Shown here one piece after another: positions 60 through 19,030 of a stretch of 64,000 nucleotides of DNA. Positions within the stretch are counted from its first letter, which is position 1, and each line of letters begins with the position of its first letter. The DNA lies in contig NGFI01000014.1 in NCBI GenBank assembly GCA_002215645.1, positions 1 to 64,000 of the forward strand, read 5' to 3'. The DNA comes from Gemmatimonadetes bacterium 2013_60CM_65_52 (GTDB lineage Bacteria > Gemmatimonadota > Gemmatimonadetes > Gemmatimonadales > Gemmatimonadaceae). A program made the position numbers and the translations under genes. The notes under the pieces were generated by a model. The model ran no database searches, was not told the DNA's origin, and saw only the letters and a program-made list of their open reading frames with translations.

Positions 60-383
60 CTGAGATCTGGAATCCGGGTGCTCAGGTTGCATGGCGAGCG
101 CGACCAGTCACACACCCCATGGATCTCGGCCCGAGCCGAAGTCGCTCGACGGGCATGAACCGCACCGAACCGTGGACGGGCAATGACATGGACACGTACA
201 CGGACGAACTCGCCCTGGTCGAAGTACTGGAACTGTGCGACGCGATTCACGTCGAGCTCTCGACCGGCGGCGATCGCGCATCCGTCTAACCAATCGGTTA
301 GGCGAAAGACTGGTCGACCGACGAATAGTTGTGGCGGGATGCTGATACCATCTTCCGCGCTCGACTTCTTTCGGGAGCGATCG
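60..383. other. Intergenic region with a candidate operator
   Basis: I see no convincing gene in these 324 bases. At 286-301 there is a perfect 6-4-6 palindrome, CTAACC-AATC-GGTTAG, the size and shape of a TetR-type operator. It lies about 80 bp before the hydrolase start at 384, so it may control that gene. No TetR gene is visible in the window to pair with it. Confidence 0.35.
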
Positions 384-1226
384 ATGCGGAAGCAGCTGAG
401 GATCGGAATCATGGTTGCCCTTGCGAGCATCATGCATGCGGCGGCGGCACCCTGCGTTGCACAGCAACAGCTCAGCGGCTCGCGAGTTGGGAAAGCCTCG
501 CCGAAAGCCACGAAAGCGAGCCTCGAATCCAACCGGAGTCACACCATGGGACCAACGATCGTACTCGTGCATGGCGCTTGGGCCGACGCGACTGGCTGGT
601 ATGATGTCACGCGCCTCCTGCAGGACGCTGGGTACAACGTCGTCGCGGTGCAGAACTCATTGTTCTCGTTCGCGACGGACATCGAGACGACAAAGCGTCT
701 CATCGATGCGCAGCAAGGGCCTCTCGTCGTCGTCGGGCACTCCTATGGGGGGGCGGTCATGTCGGCAGCGGCATCAGGAAATCCGAATGTGAAGGCGCTC
801 GTGTACGTCGCCGCGTTCGCGCCAGATCAGGGTGAAGCACTGGGAGGGCTGTTGCAGAAGTACCCCGATCTTGGACTGGGCGGCGCGCTGCGCCCGGATG
901 CCGCCGGATTCCTCTACATCGACCCCGCGCAATATCCCAAGGTCTTCGCCAACGGGCTTCCGGACAAGCAGGCCCGGGCTTTTGCCACGGAGCAAAAGCC
1001 GATCGCCGGCAGCGCGCTTGGCGAGCCGTTGACCATACAGCCGGCGTGGAGATCGGCACCGACATGGTTCGTGCTCGCGACGGAAGATCGAGCGATCAAT
1101 CCAGAGCTCGCGCACTTCATGGCCACGCGCATGAAGGCGAAAGTATCGGAAATCCGCTCGGGCCATCTGGTGTTCATATCGCACGCCGCAGAAGTCGCGC
1201 GAATCATCGAGAGCGCCGCGAGATAA
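384..1226 (+). CDS. Secreted alpha/beta hydrolase (esterase-like)
   Basis: A 280-aa protein. The ATG at 384 is preferred over the longer frame because it has a GGGAG ribosome site 6-10 bases upstream and opens a signal peptide (basic MRKQLR, hydrophobic run, AAAAPCVAQ). The mature part begins like salicylate-esterase/EstC-type hydrolases: TIVLVHGAWAD forms the oxyanion-hole region near residue 60, GHSYGG places the nucleophile at Ser120, and a late GHLVFISH supplies the likely catalytic His. Expected role is hydrolysis of a small ester outside the cytoplasm; the substrate cannot be read. It is followed after 3 bp by the tautomerase gene, so the two are probably co-transcribed. Confidence 0.8.
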   Translation: MRKQLRIGIMVALASIMHAAAAPCVAQQQLSGSRVGKASPKATKASLESNRSHTMGPTIVLVHGAWADATGWYDVTRLLQDAGYNVVAVQNSLFSFATDIETTKRLIDAQQGPLVVVGHSYGGAVMSAAASGNPNVKALVYVAAFAPDQGEALGGLLQKYPDLGLGGALRPDAAGFLYIDPAQYPKVFANGLPDKQARAFATEQKPIAGSALGEPLTIQPAWRSAPTWFVLATEDRAINPELAHFMATRMKAKVSEIRSGHLVFISHAAEVARIIESAAR

Positions 1227-1229
1227 CCG

Positions 1230-1664
1230 ATGCCGATGATTGACGTCTACGCGCCGGCCGGTGTGTTCAACGATACGTACCAGCTGGCGCGTGACCTCGC
1301 TACGGCGGTCATGAGGATCGAGCAGGTACCGCCCATCGCGATGTTCCGGCAGAACACCGCCGCGTTCGTGCACGAGCTGCCGCCCGGCCACTGTTCGAAT
1401 GTTGACGGTGACGAGGCATGCATCCGGGTTCAGGTGCTGACGAACGCAGGAGCGCTGAATCGCGATAAGCAGATCGAGATCGTAGCGGAGCTCACGCGGA
1501 TCGCCGGCGCCGCGGCCGCCAATGCCTCGGTCCAGCCGCGAACATGGGTGTTACTCACCGAAGCACCAGATGGTGGATGGGGCCTCTGGGGTCACGCTCA
1601 TACGAACGCTGATCTCGTGGGCGCCGCTCGTAAGGCAATGGCCGCGTCGGCGAAGGACGAATGA
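1230..1664 (+). CDS. Tautomerase superfamily protein
   Basis: A 144-aa protein whose second residue is proline (MPMIDVYAPAGVF), as in the 4-oxalocrotonate tautomerase superfamily, where Pro1 of the processed protein is the catalytic base. The beta-alpha-beta pattern appears twice, as expected for a fused two-unit member. The C-terminal half has LLTEAPDGGWGLWGHAHT, the usual WVLLTE-like strand. It starts 3 bp after the hydrolase and is probably in its operon. Substrate unknown. Confidence 0.7.
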   Translation: MPMIDVYAPAGVFNDTYQLARDLATAVMRIEQVPPIAMFRQNTAAFVHELPPGHCSNVDGDEACIRVQVLTNAGALNRDKQIEIVAELTRIAGAAAANASVQPRTWVLLTEAPDGGWGLWGHAHTNADLVGAARKAMAASAKDE

Positions 1665-1812: not shown

Positions 1813-2403
1813 ATGCCAGACTCCACGCGGAAACGGTGCTCCTGGGTCAACGTCGAGAACGCGCTGATGCTGGAATACCACGATGTGGAATGGGGAGTTC
1901 CGACGCATGACGACCGGAAGCATTTCGAGTTCCTGGTTCTCGAAGGCGCACAAGCTGGACTCAGCTGGTCGATCATCCTCAACAAGCGCGACGGATACCG
2001 GCGCGCGTTCAGCCAGTTCGATCCAAGCAAGGTCGCGAGATACACTGACGCGCGAATCGACAAGCTCGTCGCTGACGGCGGCATTATTCGGAATCGCGCA
2101 AAGATCAGCGCCGCCGTGAAAAACGCGCAGGCATTCCTGAAGGTTCAGGAGGAGTTCGAGAGCTTCGACGCGTATTGCTGGCAATTCGTGAACGGAAGCC
2201 CACGGCAGAATCGTTGGCGTTCGATGAACGAGATTCCTGCTTCGACAGAAGAATCGGACGCGTTCAGCCGCGATCTCAAACGTCGTGGATTCTCGTTCGT
2301 CGGAACGACGACCATCTACGCGCACATGCAGGCGGTCGGAATGGTCAACGACCACGTGGTCGAGTGTTTTCGACATCGTGAAATTCGACGGCTCGGCGCC
2401 TGA
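1813..2403 (+). CDS. tag: DNA-3-methyladenine glycosylase I
   Basis: A 196-aa base-excision repair enzyme that removes 3-methyladenine from alkylated DNA. The zinc site typical of Tag is intact: Cys9 and His23 at the N-terminus (CSWV...EYHDVEWG) and His181/Cys185 in NDHVVEC. The EYHDVEWGVP and GLSWSIILNKR blocks are strongly conserved in this family, and the length matches the usual 180-200 aa. The first 148 bp upstream hold nothing I can identify. Confidence 0.95.
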   Translation: MPDSTRKRCSWVNVENALMLEYHDVEWGVPTHDDRKHFEFLVLEGAQAGLSWSIILNKRDGYRRAFSQFDPSKVARYTDARIDKLVADGGIIRNRAKISAAVKNAQAFLKVQEEFESFDAYCWQFVNGSPRQNRWRSMNEIPASTEESDAFSRDLKRRGFSFVGTTTIYAHMQAVGMVNDHVVECFRHREIRRLGA

Positions 2404-2586: not shown

Positions 2587-2624
2587 AAAAGTTCGACATC
2601 ACTGTAAGTGATTGTCGGACTTTT
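2587..2624. terminator. Bidirectional hairpin terminator next to the tRNA fragment
   Basis: A 17/18-nt imperfect stem (AAAAGTTCGACATCACT against AGTGATTGTCGGACTTTT, one G-U and one bulge) around the loop GTA, with a T-run on both strands. It directly abuts the tRNA-Gln 3' fragment at 2625. On the minus strand it lies just where the terminator of an intact tRNA-Gln would be. Confidence 0.65.
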
Positions 2625-2669
2625 AGTTGCCCCTCCTGGGATCGAACCAGGACTCTCCTGATCCAGAGT
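2625..2669 (-). repeat. 45-bp copy of the tRNA-Gln 3' part (putative att site)
   Basis: These 45 bases are identical to 4987-5031, which covers tRNA-Gln from just beyond its 3' end through the T-arm and variable loop into the anticodon loop. The match stops abruptly at the anticodon, as at crossover sites of tyrosine-recombinase islands that integrate into tRNA genes. The remaining tRNA half is absent, so this is not a functional tRNA. Confidence 0.8.
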
Positions 2670-3277
2670 GATACGGCTCACAGGCACTGTTCCAGCAACT
2701 TGCGCGATTCTCATGGAGTTGCTCCGCATCCTGCTGCGGTCCACGCGACGCGAGTCGCGCATTGCTGGATCGAACCTTAGTGAGATGTTGAGGGTGCGGC
2801 CGGAGAGCACTGGTTGCCAAACTGATTGCTGCTGTAATGGCGACTGTGTCCGAACTCTTGCGATGAATAGGACGAGGAGGCAATCATGCCATTTGCGGAG
2901 AGCAATCCGCACTCGTGCGCGGATTACACGTCTGCTCCAAGACGTGTACGCCTGACATCCTCGATACGGTGAAGCACTTGATCTTGCCGCCTGCCTGCTC
3001 CAACCCATCAAGTTCAGGTTCCGCTCGATTCCGCCGATCGTAGGCAACAGGGTTCGGCTACGCGCCGTTTGCCCCTGTAGCTGAAGCGGACCAGAAATCG
3101 GTTCGCGCCGGCGAATCGCATCTGACGTACCCAACGATCGCCGCACTTCCATACCTCATCGCTTGCCCGCTCTATTGCATACAATTCAAACCAGTCGCAC
3201 CTTAGCGGTCCGAGCCTCCGTGACCGGCCGCCGCGGATCGCCACGTCGCCGCTCGTTCACCTTCACCAATCCCGACG
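2670..3277. other. Non-coding stretch between att-like repeat and secreted protein gene
   Basis: About 600 bases without a convincing reading frame; candidate frames on both strands have unnatural composition and no recognisable domain. It follows the tRNA fragment and may be decayed island DNA. No integrase remnant could be recognised. Confidence 0.5.
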
Positions 3278-4702
3278 TTGCGACACTCGAAACTCGCACT
3301 GTCTCTCCGCCTCGCCGCCCTCCTCGCGCTTGTCCTCTGCCAGCCCCGCACCACCGAAGCACAGGACGATCGCACCGGACGACTCGAGGGGCGTGTGATC
3401 GACAGTACTCGCGCGCGCCCACTCGTCGGCACACGCGTCGTCGTGGTGAGCATGGATGCACGTTTGGCAATGAGCGGCGCCGCGTCGACCGATTCCGCAG
3501 GCAGGTATCACATCGATTCGCTGCCGCCCGGACGCTACGCGGTCGGCTTCGAGAGCGCACTCCTCGATTCCCTCGAGATCAACCTCTCCGGGCGCACGGT
3601 CGTTGTCGCGCCAGGACGGACCGCGACGATCGATCTCGCCCTTCCGCCCGCCGCGATGCTCCGCAGTGCGCTGTGTCCGAACGTGACTCTCCCGGCGCAA
3701 ACGGGCGTGATCTTCGGGCACGTGGTGGACGTGGAGAGCGAGAACGCGGTGCCGGGCGCCGTGCTCGCGCTGTCGTGGATGGAGCGCGACGTCGACCGTG
3801 CCACGCTGCGTCCGGTGAATCGAGAGCGCACCGCATCGGCGATCACCGACGCCGACGGATGGTACCGACTGTGCGGCGTGCCGACGGACACGTGGCTCGC
3901 AATGCAGCTCCAGCACATGGGCCGCACGGGTCCGGTGATTCGCGCGCTCGTCAATGACACGCTGGGGATCGCCGTCCGTCACCTCTCGTTCGACGCGTCC
4001 ACGGCGCGTCCGGCATCGGACTCCGCGACATCGGCTGCAGCCACGGACAGCGTCGCCGCCCTTCTCCTGTCTGGGACTGCGATGCTGAGCGGCATCGTGC
4101 GCGGAACGGGCGATGCCCCGCTCGCGTCGGCGGGGGTCGGAGTGCGCGGCGCGCGCGCCACGGGGACGACGGACGCGCTCGGCCGCTACGCACTCAGGGG
4201 GCTGCCGGCCGGCACGCAGATGCTCGAGGTGCGGCACGTCGGATACTCCGCCGCCGAGATGCCCGTCGAGCTGCGGAGCGGCGTCATGGCGACGAGCGAC
4301 GTGCGGCTACAGCGTGTGGTGAACCTCGACTCCATCCGCGTCGTCGCGACGCGCCAGCGCTACAAGGAGTTCAATGAGGTACGAAAGCACACGATCGGTC
4401 TCTTCTTCGGCCCCGAAGACATGGAGTGGCGGCAACGCACGGTGTACGCGAGCGACGTGATCGAGCAGATCCCCGGCTTCCGGGTGATCGGTGATGGCAT
4501 CATGGCGGACGTGGTAAGCAACCGCGGTGCGTCCCTCGGCCCGTGCAAGACGAACGTCGTCATCGATGGCGTCGAGGGATCCTCGATCAACGACGTCAGC
4601 CCGCTCCTGATCGGAGCGTTCGCGGCGTTCCGGCAAGGCGATATGCCGCCGCAAGAATACGATCGGGGGTGCGGAGTGATCCTCATCTGGACGAAGCGAT
4701 GA
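3278..4702 (+). CDS. Secreted protein with carboxypeptidase-regulatory and TonB-plug-like domains
   Basis: A 474-aa protein from a TTG start, beginning with a signal peptide (hydrophobic residues 8-20, then TTEAQ). Three carboxypeptidase-regulatory-like beta-sandwich units follow: GRLEGRVIDS...GRYHIDSLPPGRY, GVIFGHVVD...GWYRLCGVP and LSGIVRGTGD...GRYALRGLPAG. The C-terminal 130 residues (SDVIEQIPGFRVI...GCGVILIWTKR) resemble a TonB-receptor plug domain without the barrel. Such proteins are abundant in Gemmatimonadota and Bacteroidota; the role is probably outer-membrane or surface binding, but no ligand can be read. It is the only clear gene between the two 45-bp tRNA repeats. Confidence 0.75.
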   Translation: MRHSKLALSLRLAALLALVLCQPRTTEAQDDRTGRLEGRVIDSTRARPLVGTRVVVVSMDARLAMSGAASTDSAGRYHIDSLPPGRYAVGFESALLDSLEINLSGRTVVVAPGRTATIDLALPPAAMLRSALCPNVTLPAQTGVIFGHVVDVESENAVPGAVLALSWMERDVDRATLRPVNRERTASAITDADGWYRLCGVPTDTWLAMQLQHMGRTGPVIRALVNDTLGIAVRHLSFDASTARPASDSATSAAATDSVAALLLSGTAMLSGIVRGTGDAPLASAGVGVRGARATGTTDALGRYALRGLPAGTQMLEVRHVGYSAAEMPVELRSGVMATSDVRLQRVVNLDSIRVVATRQRYKEFNEVRKHTIGLFFGPEDMEWRQRTVYASDVIEQIPGFRVIGDGIMADVVSNRGASLGPCKTNVVIDGVEGSSINDVSPLLIGAFAAFRQGDMPPQEYDRGCGVILIWTKR

Positions 4703-4954
4703 GCTACTGACGAGCTAGGGGTGTAGTCACGTGACGCGCGAGCCAGCACGCGCCCCTTCTCAAAAGAATCGGGTGAGAACGCCCAAGCGATCTCGTCGGG
4801 CCATATGGTTGTCGTCGCTCGTGTCCGTCGCAGTTTTCATTTCTTTCTTGCCTTTGGCTGTTGTGGCCTTGCCGGCCTTGACCTCGACGTCATTCGGCTC
4901 AATCAGGAGAATTTTCAGGGACCAATCTGGGGGAGTCGCCGCCCCAAGCAATAA

Positions 4955-4983
4955 GGCGAGCCAACCGAACCGGTTGACTCGCC
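4955..4983 (-). terminator. Hairpin terminator downstream of tRNA-Gln
   Basis: On the minus strand, GGCGAGTCAACCG pairs with CGGTTGGCTCGCC around a short loop (12 of 13 positions), followed by TTATTGCTT. It lies 6 bp past the tRNA-Gln 3' end, so it probably ends that transcript. Confidence 0.6.
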
Positions 4984-4986
4984 TAG

Positions 4987-5031
4987 AGTTGCCCCTCCTG
5001 GGATCGAACCAGGACTCTCCTGATCCAGAGT
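4987..5031 (-). repeat. 45-bp repeat within tRNA-Gln (putative att site, tRNA-proximal)
   Basis: Identical to 2625-2669. This copy is inside the intact tRNA gene and spans its 3' end to the anticodon loop. Confidence 0.8.
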
Positions 5032-5061
5032 CAGGCGTGTTGCCAGTTACACCAAGGGGCA
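4989..5061 (-). tRNA. tRNA-Gln (anticodon CTG)
   Basis: Reading the minus strand from 5061: the acceptor TGCCCCT pairs with AGGGGCA, the anticodon stem CCTGA/TCAGG encloses CTCTGGA with anticodon CTG, and the T-arm is CCTGG-TTCGATC-CCAGG. The length is 73 nt with discriminator A and no encoded CCA. It decodes CAG. Confidence 0.95.
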
Positions 5062-5164
5062 AAAAAACCGCCGAAATGCGCACCGAATGCATTGCGGGCG
5101 GAACCCTTGTAGAATAGCCGGGTCAGAGACTTGCTTCAACCCCTCGTCCGCCAGGAGGCCGCTT

Positions 5165-6472
5165 CTGAAACCGCATCCCCACTGCGGAAGCCGCGTCGCG
5201 TCGCCCCGCGTGCTCCTCGCGCTCCTGCCATTCCTCGGCGCCGGATGCCGGCAGGTGCAGTCCGGCTTCGGCGCCGACGCCCACGCACGAACCAGCGTCG
5301 ACCAGTTCTACGGCGCACTCGCGAACCGCCATCTCGAGATCGTGCGCAACGCAAAGTACGACTACGCGCGCGTCCAGCTCTCGCGCGGAGCGCTCTCCCC
5401 GTCACGCGTGTACGACGACACGGCGGCATGGACGGCATCGTCCGGAGCGGTCCGCGTGCTGGAGACGTTCGGCACCCACACGGACGACAAGTACGTCATG
5501 AGCTCGCACCGCACCGTGCCCGCGCCCGCAAAGCCGGCGGACGGACGGCACGTGACGACGCTCAGCCGCATGTCGGAGGGGGAATACCAATGGGACACGA
5601 CCGTCGACTTCGCGCTGGGCAGCATACGTCCCGCCGATCTCGCCCTGGTGATCTCGCGACTGATGGCAGCGGGTGAGGGCCTCACCGAGAAGGACGCGCG
5701 CGCGGAAATCGCGGCAGCGGCGCCGCGTTCGTCCGCGGTGCTCGGCGCCCTCTTCTCCCTCGACACCATCCGGCCGCTCGCGCTCGGCGACGGCTCGACG
5801 CTGGTGACGCTCGGGATCGGCGTGCATTCCGATCAATTGCGCCAGAAGTGGCCGGCGTTCGGCGAATACGTGCGCAAATACGTGGACTCCGCGCGGCTCC
5901 GGTTCGTGCTGACGGACAGGAGCGGCGCGCCGTTCCTCGATGCGCAGGGTCACGACCGGTTCCTGTCGATCAAGGTGCGCTCACTCGGTGGACATCTGGT
6001 GTCGCTGACGGGGCCACCGAGGCCGATGCCGGACACGCTCGTCATCCTCGCCGACTTCACGACGAAGGTGAAGTTGTGGCACGTCGGATTTCATGACCTG
6101 TCACTCGACTTCGTGAACTCATCACGAGGCGAGGCAGAGCGCGACTGGACGGTGACGGGACGTCGCGAGCCGCATTGGAACCTTCCGTTCATCACGGCGC
6201 GCCTGATCCGGGCGCCGTTGCGGCGTCCGTTCGCCGGCGAGGGCGCGCTGTTCCGACTGGGAGTGCGCGCAGGTACAGGCGACGAACCGACGGTGCTGGT
6301 GCGGCAGTCGCGCCTGGTCGTGCAGGAGAGCGCAATTCTTCGCTTCATCAATTCGTTGACGAGCACCGCCATGGACGACTTCGGCGGACGCGCGGAGCGC
6401 GAAGAGAATCAGTGGCTGCGCGAGCTGTTCATCGCCATGCGCGATGATGCACACGCGGTGCTCGGACCATGA
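5165..6472 (+). CDS. Hypothetical exported protein, about 435 aa
   Basis: Not recognised. The frame is open from an ATG at 5087, but that start would place the first codons in the tRNA-Gln promoter and put a basic stretch before the hydrophobic segment. AGGAGG at about 5152-5157 lies 7 bp before a CTG at 5165, after which LLALLPFLGAGC looks like a lipoprotein-type signal with Cys; I use this start, with low certainty. The body is an alpha/beta mixture (SVDQFYGALANRHLEIVRNAKYDY, several TLVILADFTTK-like strands) with no motif I can name. A strong terminator follows at 6559. Confidence 0.6.
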   Translation: MKPHPHCGSRVASPRVLLALLPFLGAGCRQVQSGFGADAHARTSVDQFYGALANRHLEIVRNAKYDYARVQLSRGALSPSRVYDDTAAWTASSGAVRVLETFGTHTDDKYVMSSHRTVPAPAKPADGRHVTTLSRMSEGEYQWDTTVDFALGSIRPADLALVISRLMAAGEGLTEKDARAEIAAAAPRSSAVLGALFSLDTIRPLALGDGSTLVTLGIGVHSDQLRQKWPAFGEYVRKYVDSARLRFVLTDRSGAPFLDAQGHDRFLSIKVRSLGGHLVSLTGPPRPMPDTLVILADFTTKVKLWHVGFHDLSLDFVNSSRGEAERDWTVTGRREPHWNLPFITARLIRAPLRRPFAGEGALFRLGVRAGTGDEPTVLVRQSRLVVQESAILRFINSLTSTAMDDFGGRAEREENQWLRELFIAMRDDAHAVLGP

Positions 6473-7823: not shown

Positions 7824-7871
7824 CTCGCGAGGGATAGTCGTCGCGTGACGACCGATCCCTCGCGAAGTCAG
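7820..7871. terminator. Long hairpin between convergent genes
   Basis: CTGACTCGCGAGGGAT pairs with ATCCCTCGCGAAGTCAG (one bulge), with an inner GTCGTC/GACGAC stem. It sits between the convergent dehydratase and KGG genes. There is no T-run, so it may act as a Rho-independent-like block in both directions or as an RNA 3'-end stabiliser. Confidence 0.6.
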
Positions 7872-7884
7872 GCCGCGGCGAGCG

Positions 7885-8457
7885 TCATGGACGCTCGATG
7901 CTGCGTTCCGCTGGTGCGCTGTTCCGCGACTCTCCGCCCAGCGAGCTACCCGATGGCCGAGGAGGATTCGCGCTCGCGTTCCGCTGCTGCTGGGAGAGGC
8001 TGCTCCCGATGCCGACCTCGCGATCGCTCTGGAGCCTCTCGGAACCGCCCGATCCGCCCCGATCCTGAAGCCGCGCCACGCGATTTGCACCGCGCGCTTC
8101 CCCACCGCGGCGGCCGATGGCCGCCATGTGCTCGCGATTCTTGCTCACGGTGACGCCACCCTTTCGGCCCGCGGCGCGCGCCTCGCTCGAGTCGAACTCG
8201 TGCGCCGTTCCCTTCTGATGCGCGGCACGCCCGCCCTTGCTGGCGATCTCCCGCTGCTTGGATCGGTCCATGGAGGCAAATCCGCGATTGCTACGCGCAC
8301 GCGGAGACCCCTGGCCGCTGGCCGAAGCCGCGCGCGATTGCGCGGCGAGCCCATCGCCGCTGGAAGGACGCGAGAAGCGCCCACTCTCGTCCGCTACTTC
8401 GCGCTGCCGTTCCCGATCCGCGCCGAAGCGCTCGTCATCGTTCGGTCTGATCGCCAT
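7885..8457 (-). CDS. KGG-repeat stress-associated protein
   Basis: A 190-aa very hydrophilic protein. It has tandem KGG-type motifs near its middle: GFASMDRSKQREIASKGGRAAH, then ARAAGRKGG, then MAAIGRRGG. This is the layout of the con-10/GsiB-type stress-induced family, thought to act as hydrophilins in desiccation and general stress. The ATG at 8457 is chosen because GAGGAGG lies about 8 bp upstream; the longer frame lacks such support. Both ends are low-complexity (SSLGGESRN, SRPSSGDG). Confidence 0.8.
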   Translation of the reverse strand: MAIRPNDDERFGADRERQREVADESGRFSRPSSGDGLAAQSRAASASGQGSPRARSNRGFASMDRSKQREIASKGGRAAHQKGTAHEFDSSEARAAGRKGGVTVSKNREHMAAIGRRGGEARGANRVARLQDRGGSGGSERLQSDREVGIGSSLSQQQRNASANPPRPSGSSLGGESRNSAPAERSIERP

Positions 8458-8590
8458 CACTGCTACCTCCTCAAGAGTTTGGGCGGGCGGCCCGTCATAC
8501 GAGTTCAACTGTGCAAACCCCGGACCCATGCGCGCTTGCGCCCTCTTTCGCCCGAGCTCGATTTAGAAGCAAAGCTCGGGCCGCAACGCG

Positions 8591-8596
8591 TATATT
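8591..8596 (+). promoter_or_regulatory. Putative -10 box (TATATT) of rnz
   Basis: TATATT ends 8 bp before the rnz ATG, so a transcript started from it would be nearly leaderless. The same hexamer stands before the genes at 11925, 44151 and 55936. No clear -35 is seen. Confidence 0.45.
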
Positions 8597-8604
8597 TCGC
8601 CGCC

Positions 8605-9570
8605 ATGTCGCTTTCCATCCGTTTGCTGGGCACCTCGGCCTCCCGACCCACCGTGGAGCGCAACGTCGCGTCGCTCGCCGTGGTGCGGGAGGGCGAGACG
8701 CTGCTGTTCGACTGCGGCGAGGGCACCCAGCGACAGATGATGCGGTACGGTGTCTCGTTCGGCTTGGCGGACATCTTCTTCACACATCTCCACGCAGACC
8801 ACGTGATCGGCGTCATCGGTTTGCTGCGCACGATGTCGCTGCAGGGACGGACCGAACCGATGCGGCTCTTCGGACCACGCGGCGCGGCGCGCATGCTGAA
8901 GCGTGCGGAGGACTTCGCGGTGGACCGGCTCGCCTTTCCCCTCGAGGTGACGGAGCTGGAGCCGGGGCAGAACGTCGCCAGAAAGGACTATGCGATCGTG
9001 CCCTACGCCGCCGATCATCGTGGCGCGCGCGCACTGGGTTTCGCGGTCGTCGAGGAGATTCGCAAGGGACGCTTCAACCCGGACCGCGCCCGCGAGCTTG
9101 GCGTCCCGGAAGGGCCGCTCTGGGGGGAGATCCATCGCGGGCGACCGGTGACGCTGGATGACGGACGCGTCATCGATCCGTCGGAGCTGGTCGGCGCGCC
9201 GCGGGCAGGGCGCAAGGTCGTGATCACCGGAGACACGCGTCCCTGTCAGGGGACGATCGACGCCGCACGCGACGCGGACGTCCTCGTGCACGAGGCGACG
9301 TTTGGCGACGAGGAGGCGGAACGCGCCGTGGAGACGGGTCATTCCACGGCGCGCGAGGCGGCCATCGTGGCGCGCGACGCGAACGTCGGCACGCTGGTGC
9401 TCGTGCATTTTTCCGCGCGCTATTCGCGTGACGCGAGCGATCTCGGGAAGGAGGCGCGCGAGGTGTTCGAGAACACGGCAGTCGGAAAGGACGGCATGGA
9501 GATCGACGTCCCCTACCGTGTCACGCCGGTGTCGGCTCCGGAGCCTGCGTCAACGGATCGCGCCGGCTGA
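8605..9570 (+). CDS. rnz: Ribonuclease Z (tRNA 3'-processing endonuclease)
   Basis: A 321-aa metallo-beta-lactamase-fold enzyme that cuts tRNA precursors 3' of the discriminator base. That suits the two tRNA genes here, which do not encode CCA. The zinc motif HLHADH is at residues 61-66, with further ligands in TGDTRPC, GHSTAREA and VHFSARYS; RLLGTSASRPT at the N-terminus and the insertion RARELGVPEGPLWG are RNase Z features. The ATG at 8605 is chosen since homology begins there, not at the upstream in-frame starts antisense to the KGG gene. Confidence 0.95.
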   Translation: MSLSIRLLGTSASRPTVERNVASLAVVREGETLLFDCGEGTQRQMMRYGVSFGLADIFFTHLHADHVIGVIGLLRTMSLQGRTEPMRLFGPRGAARMLKRAEDFAVDRLAFPLEVTELEPGQNVARKDYAIVPYAADHRGARALGFAVVEEIRKGRFNPDRARELGVPEGPLWGEIHRGRPVTLDDGRVIDPSELVGAPRAGRKVVITGDTRPCQGTIDAARDADVLVHEATFGDEEAERAVETGHSTAREAAIVARDANVGTLVLVHFSARYSRDASDLGKEAREVFENTAVGKDGMEIDVPYRVTPVSAPEPASTDRAG

Positions 9571-9814
9571 CCGGCATCGAGCGCAGGAACAGCCTGGCGA
9601 TGGACGCGTCATCGAGCTGCTCGAGCACGCGATCTTCGTCGAGACGCGCGGTCACGCTGCGTGATTCCGGCCCATTGGTAATGACCCAGTTGTAGCGGTC
9701 GAGGCGTGACGTGCGGCCGTCGGGATGGCGGAAGTAGATGACCGCGTTGCTGGAACCTGGCGTGGTGATGCTGACACGCCATGCTATGCCGTCCGGCGTC
9801 GTAAACGTTCTCAT
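9521..9814 (-). CDS. Conserved hypothetical protein, 97 aa
   Basis: A small soluble protein (MRTFTTPDGIAWRVSI...SSNAVIYFRHPDGRTSRLDRYNW) with beta-rich character. It does not belong to a family I can name. It overlaps the 3' end of rnz by 50 bp in convergent orientation and is followed downstream by nothing on its own strand. Its sensible composition and good spacing to the DUF2203 gene upstream support it as real. Confidence 0.65.
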   Translation of the reverse strand: MRTFTTPDGIAWRVSITTPGSSNAVIYFRHPDGRTSRLDRYNWVITNGPESRSVTARLDEDRVLEQLDDASIARLFLRSMPVSRRDPLTQAPEPTPA

Positions 9815-9831
9815 GGTGTGGGTGTGGGTGT

Positions 9832-10233
9832 TCAGCCGACGAGTGTCGGCGACAGAGGCTGCCGCGAGGCGAACCCGGAGTCCACTTCGTGCCAGAACTG
9901 GACCGACGGCTCGCCAAGCCTCCAGCAGAGGAGGACCTGCCGTCCGTCCATTTCGCTCGGGAAGTCGACGAGTCCCACGCGACGGTCCTTGAGTTGCGCA
10001 CCCAACTGTTCCAACTCCGCCTGATAGCCATCGATGTCGCTCGCGATCTGCTGAATGCGGCGCTCGAGCGCGGCAAGACGCGGATCGGGGAATTCGGGAG
10101 CCACGGCGGAGCCGAGGAGGTCGAGCTCGGCGATGGCTTCCTGCCAGCGGCGGTGCTCCTGGACGACGTCCTCGACGATGCGCCGGACCAGGGGAAGCGC
10201 GCGGTTGGCGTGATCGATGGTGAACAGCGTCAT
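9832..10233 (-). CDS. DUF2203 family protein
   Basis: A 133-aa protein beginning MTLFTIDHANRALPLVRRIVEDVV, the typical DUF2203 N-terminus. A coiled-coil-like middle (residues 45-85) follows, and it ends in DFPSEMDGRQVLLCWRLGEPSVQFWHEVDSGF, the family's conserved C-terminal block. The function is unknown. The ATG at 10233 is chosen because the family begins there. Confidence 0.85.
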   Translation of the reverse strand: MTLFTIDHANRALPLVRRIVEDVVQEHRRWQEAIAELDLLGSAVAPEFPDPRLAALERRIQQIASDIDGYQAELEQLGAQLKDRRVGLVDFPSEMDGRQVLLCWRLGEPSVQFWHEVDSGFASRQPLSPTLVG

Positions 10234-10273
10234 GCCTCGCAATCTAACGTGCTCCGCTGCGACGGACAGAGCG

Positions 10274-10759
10274 TCACTGCCGTTCCGCCAGCGCCTGCTC
10301 GCGCCGGCGCACGGCCACTGCATTCCGGAGCCGGTCCTCGTCTGTCTCGAGGTGAAGTCGCGGCACCGGGGCAGGCTTTCCGTCGTCGCCGAGGTGCACG
10401 AAGGTGAGCCAGCATTCGTTCGTGTGCCGCCGCACAGCGCGAGCGATGTGCTCCGCATAGACGTCGGCAAGGACGGCGATGGAGGTGCGTCCCACATGGA
10501 CGACGCGCGCGCGCACTTCCACGAGCTCGCCGACGCGGATCGGCTCCTTGAAGAGAATGCGGTCGATCGAAAGTGTCGTCACCTGTCCGCCGCAGTGACG
10601 CATGGCGCTCAGCGCCGCGCAGCGGTCCACCATACTCATGATGACGCCGCCGAACACCGACGGGTGTTTGAGCCCATTGGCGTGATGGGGCATCATGAGA
10701 TCGGCGACGATGGCTTCCGACGTGTGGGGAGTTCGAAGGTGCTCGGGAGCTTTCGTCAT
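10274..10759 (-). CDS. Acyl-CoA thioesterase, hotdog fold
   Basis: A 161-aa single-hotdog protein of the YciA/BFIT type that hydrolyses acyl-CoA. The blocks MMPHHANGLKHPSVFGGVIMSMVDRCAA (central helix with catalytic Asp) and VTTLSIDRILFKEPIRVGELVEVRARVVHVGRTSI are diagnostic. Its ATG overlaps the stop of the upstream lipoprotein-like gene by 4 bp (ATGA), implying translational coupling. Confidence 0.9.
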   Translation of the reverse strand: MTKAPEHLRTPHTSEAIVADLMMPHHANGLKHPSVFGGVIMSMVDRCAALSAMRHCGGQVTTLSIDRILFKEPIRVGELVEVRARVVHVGRTSIAVLADVYAEHIARAVRRHTNECWLTFVHLGDDGKPAPVPRLHLETDEDRLRNAVAVRRREQALAERQ

Positions 10760-11925
10760 CGGAGCATGGAGGCGAGCTGGAGCCGGACGCGGGATGCGCC
10801 GGCGATATGCGTTTCCGTTCCGTACGCGGCGGCTTCCTCGAACGCGCGAACGAGGGCATGCCGCGTCGCGGCATCGAATGCGGGACGGTCGAGCCAGTAA
10901 ATGCGCGTTGCCGGTGCCGACAGCGGCATCACTGCCCACTCACGCGAAACGCTGTCGCGCAGCGCGAGCCGCCCGGCTCCTGAGGAATCGTATCGAATGA
11001 CGACCGAGTACGCGCCATGGCGCCAGACGTCGCGCGCTCCATTGGCCGACGTCACCGGAAGTGACGGAGCGACGTCGCGCCACCATTTCGGCTCGGCGAA
11101 TGGTATGGGCGCGAGCGGCAGCACGTGACCGGCGTCGCCCGTGCCGGAGCCGGGAACGGCGTACGCGATGGCAGGTCCGCCTCCGGCAGTGGTGATGGAG
11201 AAGCTGCCCGCGTCGAAGCGGTAGTTGGAGAGCATCGCCGATGCGCGACGGCCCCGCTCGTCGCGGCTCGCACGAATGGAGTCGGCCATCTCGCGCAGCG
11301 CGCGGTCGCGTTGCCGCTCGATGGATCCTGCCCCATCGCCAGCGACGTCGGAGAGCGAGGCGGGACGGCCCGTGCGGAGATCGAGCACACCAACGCGGCT
11401 CGTGTGCCAGAGAGGGACATTGGGACGCTCGACGTCGGTGTGCAGGGAGTACGAGACGAATGGCCCATGCGCGGCGCCGATCTCGAGCGTCGCTGCCGCG
11501 CGCAACCGCGGCTCGTCGCTCGGCTCATCTCCTCGCGCGAGGGGCTGGTCGTCGGGATGCGCACGGGCGTATCGGCGAGCGATATCGGGTACGATGCTGT
11601 CCGTGAATACGCGAACGGAGTCACCACTGCGGAGGTCCCGCTTGTAGACGCTTTGACCGACGAGATCTGCCTCGCCGAACGAGCGCTCGTCGTCAACGAC
11701 GTACACCTCGACGAATTGTCCGTCGACGCGGGCCAGCTCGAGCGGAGCACCGCGCACCCGGAGTCCAGCGGTGTCGCTCGCGACCCAGTAGGCGGAGTCG
11801 CCGGCAGCTACGATAAACTCGGCCGTCGGCCTCGCCGAGCCGCGCGTGGCGGATTGGCGTGCGTCGCGGCATGCGTCGAGCGCAAGCGTCAGGAACAGGG
11901 CGGACGGGAGGACCAGCAGGCGCAT
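10756..11925 (-). CDS. Hypothetical lipoprotein, 389 aa
   Basis: The N-terminus MRLLVLPSALFLTLALDACRD is a signal peptide ending at a Cys at residue 19. The body resembles secreted DUF3298/RsiV-like proteins only vaguely: a beta-rich N-terminal half, LHTDVERPNVPLWHTSRVGVLDLRTG in the middle, and a second domain with YSVVIRYDSSGAGRLALRD. No catalytic motif can be identified. It is coupled to the thioesterase by a 4-bp overlap and preceded by a TATATT box. Confidence 0.65.
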   Translation of the reverse strand: MRLLVLPSALFLTLALDACRDARQSATRGSARPTAEFIVAAGDSAYWVASDTAGLRVRGAPLELARVDGQFVEVYVVDDERSFGEADLVGQSVYKRDLRSGDSVRVFTDSIVPDIARRYARAHPDDQPLARGDEPSDEPRLRAAATLEIGAAHGPFVSYSLHTDVERPNVPLWHTSRVGVLDLRTGRPASLSDVAGDGAGSIERQRDRALREMADSIRASRDERGRRASAMLSNYRFDAGSFSITTAGGGPAIAYAVPGSGTGDAGHVLPLAPIPFAEPKWWRDVAPSLPVTSANGARDVWRHGAYSVVIRYDSSGAGRLALRDSVSREWAVMPLSAPATRIYWLDRPAFDAATRHALVRAFEEAAAYGTETHIAGASRVRLQLASMLR

Positions 11926-11934
11926 GCTCGAGGG

Positions 11935-11940
11935 AATATA
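11935..11940 (-). promoter_or_regulatory. Putative -10 box (TATATT)
   Basis: On the minus strand TATATTCCC lies 9 bp before the ATG at 11925, the same arrangement as at rnz, suggesting a short or absent leader. Confidence 0.4.
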
Positions 11941-12033
11941 GCGCGCGGCAGGCTCATTTCCGGCGTGAAAGCTGCGAGGACGTCAGTGCGATTACCCTTC
12001 CGGAGTCCAAAAACCATGCAACCCGTCTGAATC

Positions 12034-13134
12034 GTGCGTCTTTCGTTGGGTGTTGCCTTTCTCGGTCTCGTGCTTCGCGTTCAATCGCCGTGCGTGCTGG
12101 CGCAAGCGCCGCGCCTGGACGTCGTCACGGACTTTCCCATCGTGCGGGCCGTGTACGTGAACCGCTTCGCGGCGCAGAGCGCCCGGAAGATGAAGAAACT
12201 CGTCGCGCTCGCGGACAGTACCGAGATCAATGCGCTCGTCATCGACATGAAAGACGAGTTCGGACTGAATTTCACGACGACGAATCCAGCATTCGCGAAG
12301 AACGCCGGGACGGCGGGCGTCGTGAAGAACCTGCCCGCCCTGCTCGACACGCTGCGCGCACACAAAATTCTCGCCATTGCGCGTCTCGTGGTGTTCAAGG
12401 ACTCCGTTGCTGCGCACGTCCATCCCGAGTGGACCATCCGTCGCAAGGACAGCACGATCTGGCGCGACAAGAAGGGAATCGCGTGGGTGAATCCGTATCA
12501 GCACGAATTATGGGACTACAACATCGGCGTGGCAGAGGAGCTCGCGAAGATGGGATTTGGCGAGATCCAGTTCGATTACATCCGCTTTCCCGAGCCGTAC
12601 CCTTCGCTGCCGAGACAGGTCTTTCCCAGCAGCGGCAACACGTCGAAGCCCGATCTCCTCGCCGCGTTCCTCAAGGAGGCCACGACGCGGCTCGACAAGC
12701 TCGGAGTGCGGACCACCGCCGACATCTTCGGCCTCGTGACGACGGTGAATGGCCCGTTGGAGGTCGGCCAGTATTGGGAGAAGATCTCACCGAACGTGGA
12801 CGTGGTGCTGCCGATGGTGTATCCGTCGCACTATCCGCACGGAGACTTCGGGATTCCGGTACCGAACGCGGAGCCGTACAAGGTCGTGAGCATCGCGGTC
12901 GGCCGCGCAAAGCAGCGCGACCAGAAGCTCGGCATCAAGACACCGGAACACATTCGCCCGTGGCTGCAGGCCTTCACGCTGGGCAAGCCGCCGTACGGAC
13001 CTGAACAGATCGAGGCGCAGAAGAAGGCCGTGTACGACTCCGGGTACGATGGCTGGGTGTTGTGGAATCCCGGGTCGCGCTACGAGCCCTTTGTCCCGGC
13101 GCTCGAGAAGGAGCTGGTGTCGCGCAAGAAGTAG
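12034..13134 (+). CDS. Putative glycoside hydrolase (DUF4015-type TIM barrel), secreted
   Basis: A 366-aa protein with a signal peptide (LGVAFLGLVLRVQSPCVLAQ). The rest follows the DUF4015 putative glycosyl-hydrolase family: VRAVYVNRFAAQS...INALVIDMKDEFG near residue 65, HPEWTIRRKDSTIWRDKKGIAWVNPY, GFGEIQFDYIRFPEP at the expected active-site strand, and a C-terminal YDGWVLWNPGSRYE. These acidic loop residues suit a retaining hydrolase acting on a surface or peptidoglycan-like polysaccharide; the substrate is unknown. GTG start. Confidence 0.85.
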   Translation: MRLSLGVAFLGLVLRVQSPCVLAQAPRLDVVTDFPIVRAVYVNRFAAQSARKMKKLVALADSTEINALVIDMKDEFGLNFTTTNPAFAKNAGTAGVVKNLPALLDTLRAHKILAIARLVVFKDSVAAHVHPEWTIRRKDSTIWRDKKGIAWVNPYQHELWDYNIGVAEELAKMGFGEIQFDYIRFPEPYPSLPRQVFPSSGNTSKPDLLAAFLKEATTRLDKLGVRTTADIFGLVTTVNGPLEVGQYWEKISPNVDVVLPMVYPSHYPHGDFGIPVPNAEPYKVVSIAVGRAKQRDQKLGIKTPEHIRPWLQAFTLGKPPYGPEQIEAQKKAVYDSGYDGWVLWNPGSRYEPFVPALEKELVSRKK

Positions 13135-13135
13135 T

Positions 13136-14362
13136 TCACGTGCGCGCCAACTCTTTCGTCGCGGACACGAGCCGGTCGACTTCATCGGCGGTCGTATAAC
13201 ACGCGGCCCCCACACGGACGAAACCGTCGGCAGCCTGACCCAGCACCTCGGCCACCGTCTGCGCGTAGAAGTCGCCGTTGGAGGCATAGACGCCACGCGT
13301 CGCGAGATGACGCGCGACGTCGGTGGTCGAGTGACCGCGCACCGTGAAGGAGAGCGTCGGCGTACGCGGCGTCCCCGGCGGTGGCCCGAAGAGCGTAACG
13401 CCGTCGATCGATGCGAGGCCCTCCCACAGGCGAGTCAGGAGCTCGTTTCCGCGCTGATGTAGAGCTCCGTAAGCCCGAACAAGACGCTCGCGCAGATTAC
13501 CGTTCTCACCGCCGATTGAGGCGATGTACTCCACGGCGGCCGCCGACCCGACGATCCCCTCGTGGTTCTGCGTCCCCGTTTCGATGCGCTCGGGTGCATC
13601 GGTCGGCGCAGGATCCAGCCTGGGAATGTCGATTGAGTCCACGAGCTCGCGCTTTCCAAATAGCGCGCCGGCGTGCGGACCGTAGAACTTGTACGCCGAG
13701 CATGCGAGGAAGTCGCAGCCGATCTGCTTCACGTCCGTCAGTACATGGGGCGCGGCGTGCACCGCGTCCACGAAGGTGACCGCACCCACGTCGCGCGCAC
13801 GGGCGCAGACCGCTGCGACGTCGGTAATGGTGCCGAGGGCGTTCGATGCCGCGCCGATAGCCACCAGTCGGGTGCGCGGTCCGATGGCGCGCGCGAGGTC
13901 ATCGGGATCGTGGCGGAACGTCCGGGGATCGAGTCGAACGGTGCGTACCACGAGATCGCGCTCCTTCGCGATGGTGCGCCAGGGCGCGACGTTCCCGTGA
14001 TGGTCGAGCTCCGTGACGACGATCTCATCTCCCTGGCCCCATCGGCGCGAGAGACCGCGTGCGAGGTGAAAGGTGATCGTCGTCATGTTGTTGCCGAACG
14101 AGACGTCCGCGGGCGCCGCGTTGAAGAATGCCGCAAACGTTTCCCGTGCCTGGTCCAGCAACCGATCGGTCTCGGCACTGGTGGGATACGCCCAGTGGGT
14201 GTTGGCGTTGTGATGAAACAGGTAGTCCGTCATCGCCTGCGCGACGGAGCGCGGCACCTGGGTTCCGCCTGGTCCGTCGAAGTACGCGACAGGGTGGCTC
14301 TGCTCGCGGCGCTCGAGTGCCGGGTAGTCGGATCGGATGGACTCGGTGGTCCGGACGCTCAT
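13136..14362 (-). CDS. Cysteine desulfurase-like class V aminotransferase
   Basis: A 408-aa fold-type I PLP enzyme. The internal aldimine lysine lies in CSAYKFYGPHAG; the upstream FVDAVHAAPHVLTDV gives the cofactor-stacking His and Asp, and TELDHHGNVAPW is the substrate loop of the SufS/NifS-like group. It belongs to the 'cysteine desulfurase-like, TIGR01976' type rather than to the Fe-S biogenesis SufS, since no suf genes adjoin it. The ATG at 14362 is chosen where homology begins. Its 3' end abuts the gene at 12034. Confidence 0.88.
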   Translation of the reverse strand: MSVRTTESIRSDYPALERREQSHPVAYFDGPGGTQVPRSVAQAMTDYLFHHNANTHWAYPTSAETDRLLDQARETFAAFFNAAPADVSFGNNMTTITFHLARGLSRRWGQGDEIVVTELDHHGNVAPWRTIAKERDLVVRTVRLDPRTFRHDPDDLARAIGPRTRLVAIGAASNALGTITDVAAVCARARDVGAVTFVDAVHAAPHVLTDVKQIGCDFLACSAYKFYGPHAGALFGKRELVDSIDIPRLDPAPTDAPERIETGTQNHEGIVGSAAAVEYIASIGGENGNLRERLVRAYGALHQRGNELLTRLWEGLASIDGVTLFGPPPGTPRTPTLSFTVRGHSTTDVARHLATRGVYASNGDFYAQTVAEVLGQAADGFVRVGAACYTTADEVDRLVSATKELART

Positions 14363-14401
14363 GAGATGACGGGAGTGCGGTTGGGAGCGATATTGCGGCG
14401 T

Positions 14402-14629
14402 ATGATAACGCGTCTGCGGATCAGCGGCATGAGCTGCCAGCACTGTGTGAACGCCGTGTTCACGGCGCTGACGCCGGTGCCCGGCATCGTTTCGGCGCAG
14501 GTGTCCATCGGTGGTGCGGTGATCGAGCACGATGGACGCGCAACGCGCGAACTGTTGGAGGCAGCCGTCGAGAGCGCGGGATACTCGCTCGATGACGCCG
14601 AGGACACGCGCGCCTTGCCGGTGCTTTGA
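14402..14629 (+). CDS. Heavy-metal-associated (HMA) domain protein
   Basis: A 75-aa single HMA (ferredoxin-like) domain. Its metal-binding GMSCQHC motif puts the ligands at Cys12 and Cys15, as in copper chaperones of the CopZ type. Its stop overlaps the start of the EamA transporter (TTGA). The metal is probably Cu(I), by family analogy only. Confidence 0.88.
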   Translation: MITRLRISGMSCQHCVNAVFTALTPVPGIVSAQVSIGGAVIEHDGRATRELLEAAVESAGYSLDDAEDTRALPVL

Positions 14630-15537
14630 CGCAACCGCACGTGGACCGCCCGCCGCGGGCGGTGCTGAGCGCGACGCTGCTGGTACTGTTCAGCGCGTGT
14701 TGCTTCGGCTCCATCGCCATCCTGATCACACTGGGAACGCGAAGTGGAGCGCGACTGATCGACCTTCTGCTCTGGCGTTACGCGGTGGCGGCGGTGCTCC
14801 TTGCCGCCGTAAGCGGCGGAATGCGAGCATTCCGGCTTGGGCCTTCGCGTACCGTGAAGCTGCTGGTGCTCACGGGCGGCGGCCAGGCGGCGATCGCGTT
14901 CGTGACTCTGTCGGCGCTCAAGTACATTCCCGCGGCGTCGCTCACGTTTCTCTTCTATACGTATCCGGCCTGGGTCGCGGCCATCTCGGCCGTGCGGCGA
15001 ACCGAGCGGCTCACCACTGTCCGCGTCATCGCGCTCCTGCTGTCGCTGTCGGGCGTGGCGTTCATGGTCGGAGTACCGGGTGCTGGAGGCCTCAATCCCA
15101 CCGGAGTGGCGCTCGCGTTGCTGGGAGCCCTGATCTACGCCGCGTACATCCCGATGATGGGGCACCTCGGCGGCGATCTCTCGCCCGCGGTTACGTCGAC
15201 GTACGCATCGGTCGGCGCCGCGGCGATCTTCCTGGCGGCGTCGCTTGCGGCCGGGCCGCTGAATCTGCACTTCACGCCGGTGGCGCTCGTGTGTATCGCG
15301 CTCCTCGCGGTCGTGTGCACGGTGTTCGCATTCATCGCGTTTCTGCGCGGCCTTGCGGTGATCGGACCAGTGCGCACCGCGATCATCAGTACCATCGAAC
15401 CGTTCTGGACGGCGTTGTTGGCGGGCGCTGTGCTGGGACAGGTTCCCGGACCGCGCACGTTTGTCGGCGGAGTGCTGATCGCGAGCGCGGTGATCGTCCT
15501 CCAGCTAGCGCACGCTCGAGGCAGCAAGCGGGGATAG
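14626..15537 (+). CDS. EamA/DMT-family transporter
   Basis: A 303-aa integral membrane protein with about ten hydrophobic helices arranged as two EamA repeats (residues about 15-140 and 155-295). GSIAILITLG and SALKYIPAASLTFLFYTYPAW are typical of the drug/metabolite superfamily. TTG start overlapping the HMA gene by 4 bp. The substrate is unknown. Its 3' end overlaps the acyl-CoA dehydrogenase gene by 33 bp in convergent orientation. Confidence 0.88.
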   Translation: MTQPHVDRPPRAVLSATLLVLFSACCFGSIAILITLGTRSGARLIDLLLWRYAVAAVLLAAVSGGMRAFRLGPSRTVKLLVLTGGGQAAIAFVTLSALKYIPAASLTFLFYTYPAWVAAISAVRRTERLTTVRVIALLLSLSGVAFMVGVPGAGGLNPTGVALALLGALIYAAYIPMMGHLGGDLSPAVTSTYASVGAAAIFLAASLAAGPLNLHFTPVALVCIALLAVVCTVFAFIAFLRGLAVIGPVRTAIISTIEPFWTALLAGAVLGQVPGPRTFVGGVLIASAVIVLQLAHARGSKRG

Positions 15538-17433: not shown

Positions 17434-17449
17434 AGACCCTGTCCTGTGG

Positions 17450-18187
17450 CTATTGCTGCAAGTTAGCTCGCGGCATTTCGGGGTGCACAGCCGTGACACG
17501 TGAGCGGTCGCGCCAGGCGACGATGCCCGCTCCCACGACGGCAATCGCGGCGAAGATGAACCACTGAATCGCGTATTCACGATGCGGCCCCTCGTCGAGC
17601 GCGGGTAGCTCGCGCCGCGCCGGATGCGAGAGATCGGCCGTGTCTCCCACCGCAATCAGGAAATACGGCGCGACCGGATACGGCAGTCTGGCCGCGAGCT
17701 CCGCCCGCGTGACGCGCCGGATGACTCGGGGATTCGCCGCTTTCACCATGGCGGTATCCGCCGCATAGAGCTGCACGTATGCCAGCAGGCTCGCAGAATC
17801 ACCCTCCCGCCAGCGCGGCTGGTCGACGGTGGACGCATCCGGGGAATAGACCCAGCCGCGATTCACCATTACCGCCGTGTCGGTGCCGTCGAGACGGACG
17901 GGCGTCAGAAGCTCCACACCTGGTGACCCGCGGCGAGTCCGCGGGCTGAGGATCAGTTCGTGGCCATAGTCGAACCGTCCGGATATCCGCACTCCGCGGT
18001 AGTGCGCCTCGGCCGAGTCGCGCGGAAGCTGCCGAAAGTCGACCGGGCGTGTGGTCTGCTGCCGCGTGAAGTTTGCATTCCAGGCCTGGCGTTCCCTGAG
18101 GCGCGCGATCTGCCAGAAGCCGAGCCGCAGAAAGATGGCCGCGGCCACGGCGGCAAGTGCACAGAAGACGAGAATTCGACGCGGCAT
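17450..18187 (-). CDS. SURF1 family cytochrome-oxidase assembly protein
   Basis: A 245-aa protein with the two-helix SURF1 topology: one membrane segment at residues 5-23 (FCALAAVAAAIFLRLGFWQI) and one near 215-232 (YAIQWFIFAAIAVVGAGIVAW). Conserved blocks are LGFWQIARLRERQAWN, GRFDYGHELILSPR, VMVNRGWV and the EYAIQWF signature. It is expected to help heme-copper oxidase assembly in an aerobic respirer. Confidence 0.93.
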   Translation of the reverse strand: MPRRILVFCALAAVAAAIFLRLGFWQIARLRERQAWNANFTRQQTTRPVDFRQLPRDSAEAHYRGVRISGRFDYGHELILSPRTRRGSPGVELLTPVRLDGTDTAVMVNRGWVYSPDASTVDQPRWREGDSASLLAYVQLYAADTAMVKAANPRVIRRVTRAELAARLPYPVAPYFLIAVGDTADLSHPARRELPALDEGPHREYAIQWFIFAAIAVVGAGIVAWRDRSRVTAVHPEMPRANLQQ

Positions 18188-18220
18188 CGCGCGAAATGTA
18201 TGAGCCGTGCACGCACTCGA

Positions 18221-19030
18221 TCAAAACAGCGACATCTGCTCGCCGAGGGATTCCGGATTCACAGGAGCCTGGCCGACCATGCGCTGGAGCTCTCGCGCGC
18301 TTTGCGGCGAGTGACCGGCAAAGAGGTTGTTCACGTAACCGTAGACCTTCACGTTCACCTTCGACAGCGTGGTCATCACGTCCGCCCACTCCTCCAGCTC
18401 GCGCGTGCGGTCGATCTGAATGCGCGAGTAATCCACGATGTCGCGGTTGGCGCCCATCCATCGGAGATACGCAAAGTTCGCCGTTGGCCGCGAGGCGAGC
18501 GCCAGCATCTGCTTGCGGGGAATCCAGCGAGCGTCGGTCACGGCGAGCGCCACGCCATGCTCTGCCAGCAGCGCAATCACGCCGTCGTTGATCCACCCGC
18601 GATGGCGGAACTCGATGGCAAATCGGATGTCGCGCGGCAACGCCGGAAGCAGGTTGGCGACGGCGGGCAGCTCGCTCGGGCCGAAATCGGGAGCAAGCTG
18701 GATGAGCACGGGTCCAAGCTTGTCATATAGCTCGCGTGCGCGCTCGAAGAATTCTTCCGCGAGATCGGCGGAGTCCCGCAGCCGCCGCTCGTGGGTGATT
18801 TCCTGGGGAAGCTTGAGCGCGAACGTGAATCCCGGCGGCGTCCGTTCATACCATCCGCGCACCGTCCTGACCGGCGGAACCGCGTAGAAGGTGGAGTCCA
18901 CCTCCACCGTGTCGAAAGCACGCGCATAGACCGTGAGGTAGTCCGCCGGCCGCGTGTCGCCCGGGTAGAACGGTCCCACCCACGCATCATAGTTCCAGCC
19001 CTGCGTACCAAGCCGAATCGGCGCGCTCAT
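18221..19030 (-). CDS. DUF72 family protein
   Basis: A 269-aa TIM-barrel-like protein. It has the DUF72 landmarks IRLGTQGWNYDAWVGPFYP at the N-terminus, TVEVDSTFYAVPP, FTFALKLPQEITHERRL, and VKVYGYVNNLFAGHSPQSAREL at the C-terminus. The biochemical role of the family is not established. Confidence 0.92.
   Translation of the reverse strand: MSAPIRLGTQGWNYDAWVGPFYPGDTRPADYLTVYARAFDTVEVDSTFYAVPPVRTVRGWYERTPPGFTFALKLPQEITHERRLRDSADLAEEFFERARELYDKLGPVLIQLAPDFGPSELPAVANLLPALPRDIRFAIEFRHRGWINDGVIALLAEHGVALAVTDARWIPRKQMLALASRPTANFAYLRWMGANRDIVDYSRIQIDRTRELEEWADVMTTLSKVNVKVYGYVNNLFAGHSPQSARELQRMVGQAPVNPESLGEQMSLF

Follow-up and report, generated by a model that had tools for sequence, protein, structure and literature searches.

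A probable integrase-less element remnant at tRNA-Gln, a candidate integration hotspot in Gemmatimonadales

Introduction

In Gemmatimonadetes bacterium 2013_60CM_65_52 the 3′ part of a tRNA-Gln gene occurs twice, once within the intact gene and once some distance downstream of it, which raises the question of how the second copy came to lie there. The stretch of DNA analyzed here comprises 64,000 nucleotides of one contig and is referred to below as the window. An initial annotation of this DNA had read the arrangement as the trace of an island that integrated at tRNA-Gln and no longer has an integrase. The analysis described below compared the locus with other Gemmatimonadota genomes, and most probably (about 0.92) the stretch from 2625 to 4987 represents a small integrated element without an integrase, that is, a CIME-like remnant at tRNA-Gln.

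Results

The tRNA-Gln gene and its displaced copy

The repeat finder returned one 45-nt pair, 100% identical and in the same orientation (2625-2669 and 4987-5031, spacing 2362), in agreement with the 45-bp copy of the tRNA 3′ part that had been reported 2.36 kb away; judged from the sequences, this identity is not due to chance. By manual count the far copy begins where the anticodon loop has its 5′ edge (tRNA nucleotide 31) and extends to the 3′ end plus one base, so that the boundary does fall in the anticodon loop as proposed; ARAGORN places the anticodon ctg at tRNA position 34. The underlying observation, a tRNA-Gln gene accompanied by a displaced copy of its 3′ part, is confirmed. A separate terminator behind the tRNA gene itself had also been claimed and was recovered, both as a hairpin and by a simple terminator scan, which gave two sites between 2400 and 5200 where 1.6 were expected. 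The terminator after the far copy had been called strong; a hairpin is present there, but it is weaker than the tRNA gene's own, given their folding energies (Table 1), and was missed by the terminator scan.

Table 1. Features of the tRNA-Gln locus, in window coordinates
Feature	Position	Strand	Basis or remark
DNA beyond far copy to contig start	1-2586		absent from other fetched tRNA-Gln loci
Alpha/beta hydrolase, beyond far copy	183-1226		
Small protein, beyond far copy	1230-1664		
Methyladenine glycosylase, beyond far copy	1813-2403		
Hairpin after far copy	2587-2624	-	-14.7 kcal/mol, z -5.5
Displaced 3′ part of tRNA-Gln, 45 bp, far end of unit	2625-2669	-	repeat finder
Putative attachment motif CAAGTTGCTGGAA, 21 bp before CTCTGG of far copy	2690-2702	-	motif scan
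Passenger gene, 474 aa, CarboxypepD_reg domain protein	3278-4702	+	ORF and Pfam
Near end of unit, 72 bp	4911-4982	-	sequence search against fetched loci
Terminator hairpin directly after tRNA-Gln	4954-4984	-	-25.2 kcal/mol, z -6.6
Intact tRNA-Gln (anticodon CTG), putative integration site	4988-5061	-	ARAGORN

Content of the unit

The 2.3 kb between the copies contains one clear gene, which belongs to a large family with matches at E<=1e-20 in 50 of the 59 genomes of the window's family; its closest relative among these genomes, at 60% identity, is found in G004. Several neighboring paralogs (four matches) are located on contig 34 of G004 at 7867-18272. The passenger gene had no match at E<=1e-6 in any other fetched tRNA-Gln locus, the only loci with matches being those fetched for the passenger gene itself. 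The GC content of the unit (57-68%) falls inside the 58-69% range and its composition is not outstanding, which counts against an element.

The statement that no integrase remains is true as far as tested. Nine integrases from elements of this type gave nothing better than E 0.04 against the unit, neither an integrase nor a remnant of one; the four PF00589 (Phage_integrase) matches of the window genome lie on contigs 2, 9, 11, and 13, none of them on contig 3, to which the window belongs; and the tRNA-Gln integrase family described below had no match in this genome among the five of ten candidates that were scored. On contig 9 of the same genome (G000), positions 4376-5698 (L138) encode a tyrosine integrase related to the far-copy integrases of G130 and G115. 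By eye, the DNA before the start of this gene resembles the 3′ end of another tRNA, although ARAGORN detects no tRNA there.

A motif at fixed spacing before truncated copies

In one genus (g13) the DNA just before truncated tRNA-Gln copies falls into two families, A and B, of which family A carries CAAGTTGCTGGAA. When one mismatch is tolerated, this motif occurs 11 times in 1,445,605 fetched bases (1.45 Mb from loci that overlap in part, with L001 and L150, the window copies, excluded), each time 20-22 bp before the CTCTGG of a truncated tRNA-Gln copy (CCCTGG in one case). The window provides one of these occurrences, with a spacing of 21, and genus g13 the other ten. Because the g13 truncated copies had been fetched on purpose, a scan of 288 genomes is the fairer test. 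A fixed motif pattern gave 19 matches in 13 of these genomes, compared with two for a reversed-pattern control, and 13 of the 19 precede a truncated tRNA-Gln copy (four each in G021 and G071, the others in G073, G076, G044, G211, and the window's genome); the remaining six, in G046, G115, G155, G160, G163, and G252, are without such a copy. The context of nine matches, including the window's, was inspected in the genome scan and that of the other ten in earlier locus views. G211 belongs to the window's family and G044 to another genus of f2. Since the motif stands at a fixed spacing before truncated tRNA-Gln copies, the far copy appears to carry an element's attachment half. The pattern had no match in viral collections, and no integrase using a motif of the window's type was identified, the latter being a point against an element. 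Folding of the attachment region as a single-stranded, attC-like site gave z -2.3 for the window and -1.4 and -3.4 for two G021 sites.

Integrases and complete elements at tRNA-Gln

A family of tyrosine integrases is encoded just downstream of tRNA-Gln, reading toward the tRNA, in G224, G054, G112, and G239, and a more distant integrase is found at this gene in G012. Relatives of the family at E<=1e-15 occur in 59 of the 288 genomes of the order. When integrase positions were compared by hand with tRNA-Gln match positions, an integrase lay within about 320 bp of an intact tRNA-Gln in at least eight genomes (G224, G195, G112, G054, G239, G198, G199, and G219); because no more than three candidates were scored in each genome in the tRNA-Gln scan, its match counts are minimum values. 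Stops occur in the integrases of G112, G198, and G199, and the G219 integrase is in two pieces; the remaining relatives are located elsewhere or are unplaced. G224 carries a complete element consisting of tRNA-Gln, integrase, 13.3 kb of DNA and a truncated copy, in the same layout as the window; its integrase has no relative in viral contigs or phage records. Integrases of a second kind are positioned just before the far copy and contain an arm-binding domain in G130 and G111, with a related protein in G115. Some truncated copies have C-terminal fragments of the integrase family beside them, and in G129 an integrase abuts a truncated tRNA-Gln copy that is the far copy of a unit without a detected integrase. 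Broken integrase pieces that by eye resemble integron integrases (IntI) were seen near tRNA-Gln in G023 (L067, 4940-6147) and G025 (L066, 9279-9794). On sequence comparison, tRNA-Gln is an integration hotspot in this Gemmatimonadota order.

DNA on either side of tRNA-Gln in relatives

Fifty-six downstream regions were compared, the window's included (43 of 5 kb or more and nine of less than 2 kb), some of the loci having been picked non-randomly, by contig position or multiple copies. The sequence after tRNA-Gln varies from genome to genome and no gene is common to all 56 regions. The largest cluster, a kinase-like family, comprises eight of the 56 loci at scattered positions, and the second, an integrase family, six, five of which have it at 72-311 bp from the tRNA. 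Had the unit been ordinary core DNA, the same 2.3 kb would have been expected in all relatives according to the initial annotation; with its cargo gene absent from the other tRNA-Gln loci fetched and the downstream genes so variable, nothing of the kind was seen. The comparison with relatives did reveal larger islands of the same layout, but the uninterrupted site that it was also expected to reveal for this genome was not found among the relatives compared, which weighs against an element. A 461-aa protein considered as the native downstream gene was rejected, being patchy (five of 31 genomes) and absent from the window genome. It is encoded beside or near tRNA-Gln in G075 (L098, 5363-6748) and G015 (L075, 12050-13600) and is 67-91% identical across three families of the order. 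At two contig ends of G021 (L023, 69-141; L028, 5-77) an intact tRNA-Gln follows the 3′ end of a tRNA-Ala, reflecting either a duplication or an assembly effect.

Upstream of tRNA-Gln, positions 5087-6472 of the window encode a 461-aa protein without a Pfam match, and this gene is kept beside tRNA-Gln in many members of the window's family. A search with the protein alignment returned 30 loci in named genomes, every one of which carries the title Gemmatimonadetes, Gemmatimonadota or that of a subgroup, which would place the window in this group, probably among the Gemmatimonadaceae; a contig search with the single protein instead of the alignment returned nothing. On the other side, base 1 of the window is base 1 of its contig, and therefore just 2.6 kb are visible beyond the far copy. 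None of the three proteins encoded there (glycosylase, hydrolase, small protein) was matched at E<=1e-6 elsewhere among the tRNA-Gln loci fetched, and the DNA itself had no convincing match in these loci (best E 0.015).

Tandem arrays

In genus g13 the units are arranged in tandem and measure 0.4-7.6 kb, and no intact integrase was found in them. At least two truncated copies were counted manually, leaving out copies cut by contig ends, in nine of 28 f2 genomes, which had been chosen for several tRNA-Gln matches or candidates or for membership of g13; tandem truncated copies are also present in G130, from the window's family. One 12.5-kb contig of G021 has five truncated copies in the same orientation, with units of 1.3, 1.4, 2.7, and 4.4 kb. 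According to Pfam, the cargo of the g13 arrays includes a PAS protein, a cytochrome c, a transporter, a Y-family DNA polymerase, a protein kinase, an aldo/keto reductase with an AraC regulator, and a MOSC protein, with two scanned proteins belonging to no Pfam family; a sulfatase and a Fic protein are also found among the passenger genes of the hotspot. The DNA of G075 from 89 bp after the tRNA matches that of G076 from 770 bp after its last copy (90%, 511 bp), and a stretch further on matches G021 beyond its last copy (91%, 1817 bp), where a 410-bp piece is inverted. These matches fit a history in which arrays entered between the tRNA and older DNA, accompanied by rearrangement. The tandem units may be either moving cassettes or decaying tandems.

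Ends of the units

Eighteen units were compared end against end for arm repeats, with a shuffle control. A clear repeat at both ends was detected in four: over 28 bp in G224 and over 22 bp in the first G130 unit, each with one mismatch, and in two units without a detected integrase, those of G129 (14 of 14) and G061 (20 of 21). One G071 unit was borderline (11.5 versus a shuffle maximum of 11), and 13 units, including the window's, have no clear shared end repeat; for the window unit this again counts against an element. Arm-type repeats follow tRNA-Gln in 10 of 55 sequences at p<=0.05, where about three are expected by chance; none was seen at the window unit's near end (p 0.79), a further point against an element. 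An arm-type repeat after the far copy, first seen by reading, failed the shuffle control (p 0.37). The 72 bp of the near end resemble DNA after tRNA-Gln in G010 (79%, E 2e-12) and G227 (74%, E 3e-5) and, weakly, DNA after a truncated copy in G063 (69%, E 0.002). Because this type of near end is spread patchily, the near terminator was probably brought by the element. The terminator after the far copy may be the tRNA gene's original one, as the initial annotation suggested. A search for a translated protein tail that the window's near end would share with those of G010, G227, and G063 did not establish one.

Discussion

An integrated element and its alternatives

The initial reading of the locus as the trace of a tRNA-Gln island without an integrase is strengthened by the larger islands of the same layout in relatives and by the attachment motif at the copy. 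In the proposed sequence of events, a tyrosine integrase would have recombined the attachment site of an element with tRNA-Gln at the anticodon loop, a tRNA 3′ half brought by the element, together with a terminator, would have restored the gene, and the displaced original 3′ part would mark the far end of a unit carrying one passenger gene, the integrase having been lost or never present. We infer the recombination event itself, the class of the inserting integrase, and the present immobility of the unit. Islands targeted to tRNA genes are recognized by an intact tRNA at one end and a displaced fragment at the other, both of which are present here, and by an internal integrase gene, which the window unit lacks. 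A CIME is characterized by two attachment sites and no recombination genes, a description that suits the unit, its sites being putative; as to derivation by deletion from an ICE or IME, another trait of CIMEs, no integrase remnant was found in the unit.

Whether the far copy is the end of the locus is a separate matter. It may be a boundary inside a longer tandem, with a second, older element beyond it whose far end lies off the contig. The glycosylase and hydrolase missing from other fetched tRNA-Gln loci are in keeping with this, as is the frequency of tandem truncated copies in the chosen f2 genomes and their presence in G130; set against this, the DNA after the far copy has no element signature, neither a significant arm-like repeat nor a convincing homologue, which leaves a longer tandem somewhat short of an even chance. 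If homologous or illegitimate recombination had simply duplicated part of the tRNA gene, involving no site-specific element, this would agree with a unit that has no integrase and no arm repeat at its near end. Such a duplication is very improbable in view of the motif, which is common at fixed spacing to truncated copies of other genera and families, the start of the copy at the anticodon loop, and the integrases at tRNA-Gln in relatives.

If the 2625-4987 unit is an integrated element, it could still be a working, non-autonomous one, moved by an outside integrase or by fusion with a neighboring element. The far attachment half is intact in sequence, and the G129 and G061 units keep both arms with no integrase detected, that of G129 having an integrase against its far copy; however, a matching arm is missing from the window unit's near end and the integrase family is unmatched in the window genome among the candidates scored, making continued activity unlikely. 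A broader and rather doubtful suggestion is that tRNA-Gln of the Gemmatimonadales may serve as a cassette capture site, at which short integrase-less units, with one to a few genes each and sharing attachment arms (families A and B), would be inserted in tandem by the integrases of other elements, the window unit being a captured family A cassette. If true, cassette capture at tRNA-Gln would constitute an integron analogue built on a tRNA gene.

Comparison with known systems

The CIME-like unit of the window leads to an order-wide hotspot with an integrase family, attachment motifs, and tandem units with passenger genes, and the tRNA-Gln site offers a defined place to seek recent gene gain in these bacteria. 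Tycheposons, too, are cargo units beside tRNA genes, with tyrosine recombinases. The tRNA-gene islands of the Islander database (PMC4383910) likewise have a restored tRNA gene and a displaced fragment at their two ends, but unlike them the window unit is without an integrase gene. The streptococcal CIMEs, for which PMC7563491 gives sizes of 1.2-13 kb and mentions a tRNA-Lys of S. agalactiae, share with the window unit end attachment sites, the lack of an integrase, passenger genes, small size, a tRNA 3′ end, and tandems. They differ in phylum and in tRNA; in addition, no conjugative parent has been identified here, and the two ends of the window unit do not match each other. Among the Dehalococcoides ssrA islands, 15 are without an integration module and for these the authors also suggest the term "cis-mobilizable" (PMC3146451). 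These islands resemble the present units in forming tandems, in their RNA-gene 3′-end repeats, and in a short motif conserved immediately ahead of the repeat; their target is tmRNA and their recombinase, going by Ccr-like figure labels, is of another type (PMC3146451), whereas here the target is tRNA-Gln and relatives encode Phage_integrase-type proteins.

A limited search of openly available text on Gemmatimonad tRNA-Gln, or on islands, integrases and tRNA in these bacteria, returned no description of the hotspot, and PMC11271474, from the Gemmatimonad literature, concerns other matters in its accessible part. By kind, the window unit matches the CIMEs and the Dehalococcoides ssrA islands without integration modules. 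Taken alone it is an ordinary kind of remnant; the novelty lies in where it is, in its motif, and in the tandem units of the order.
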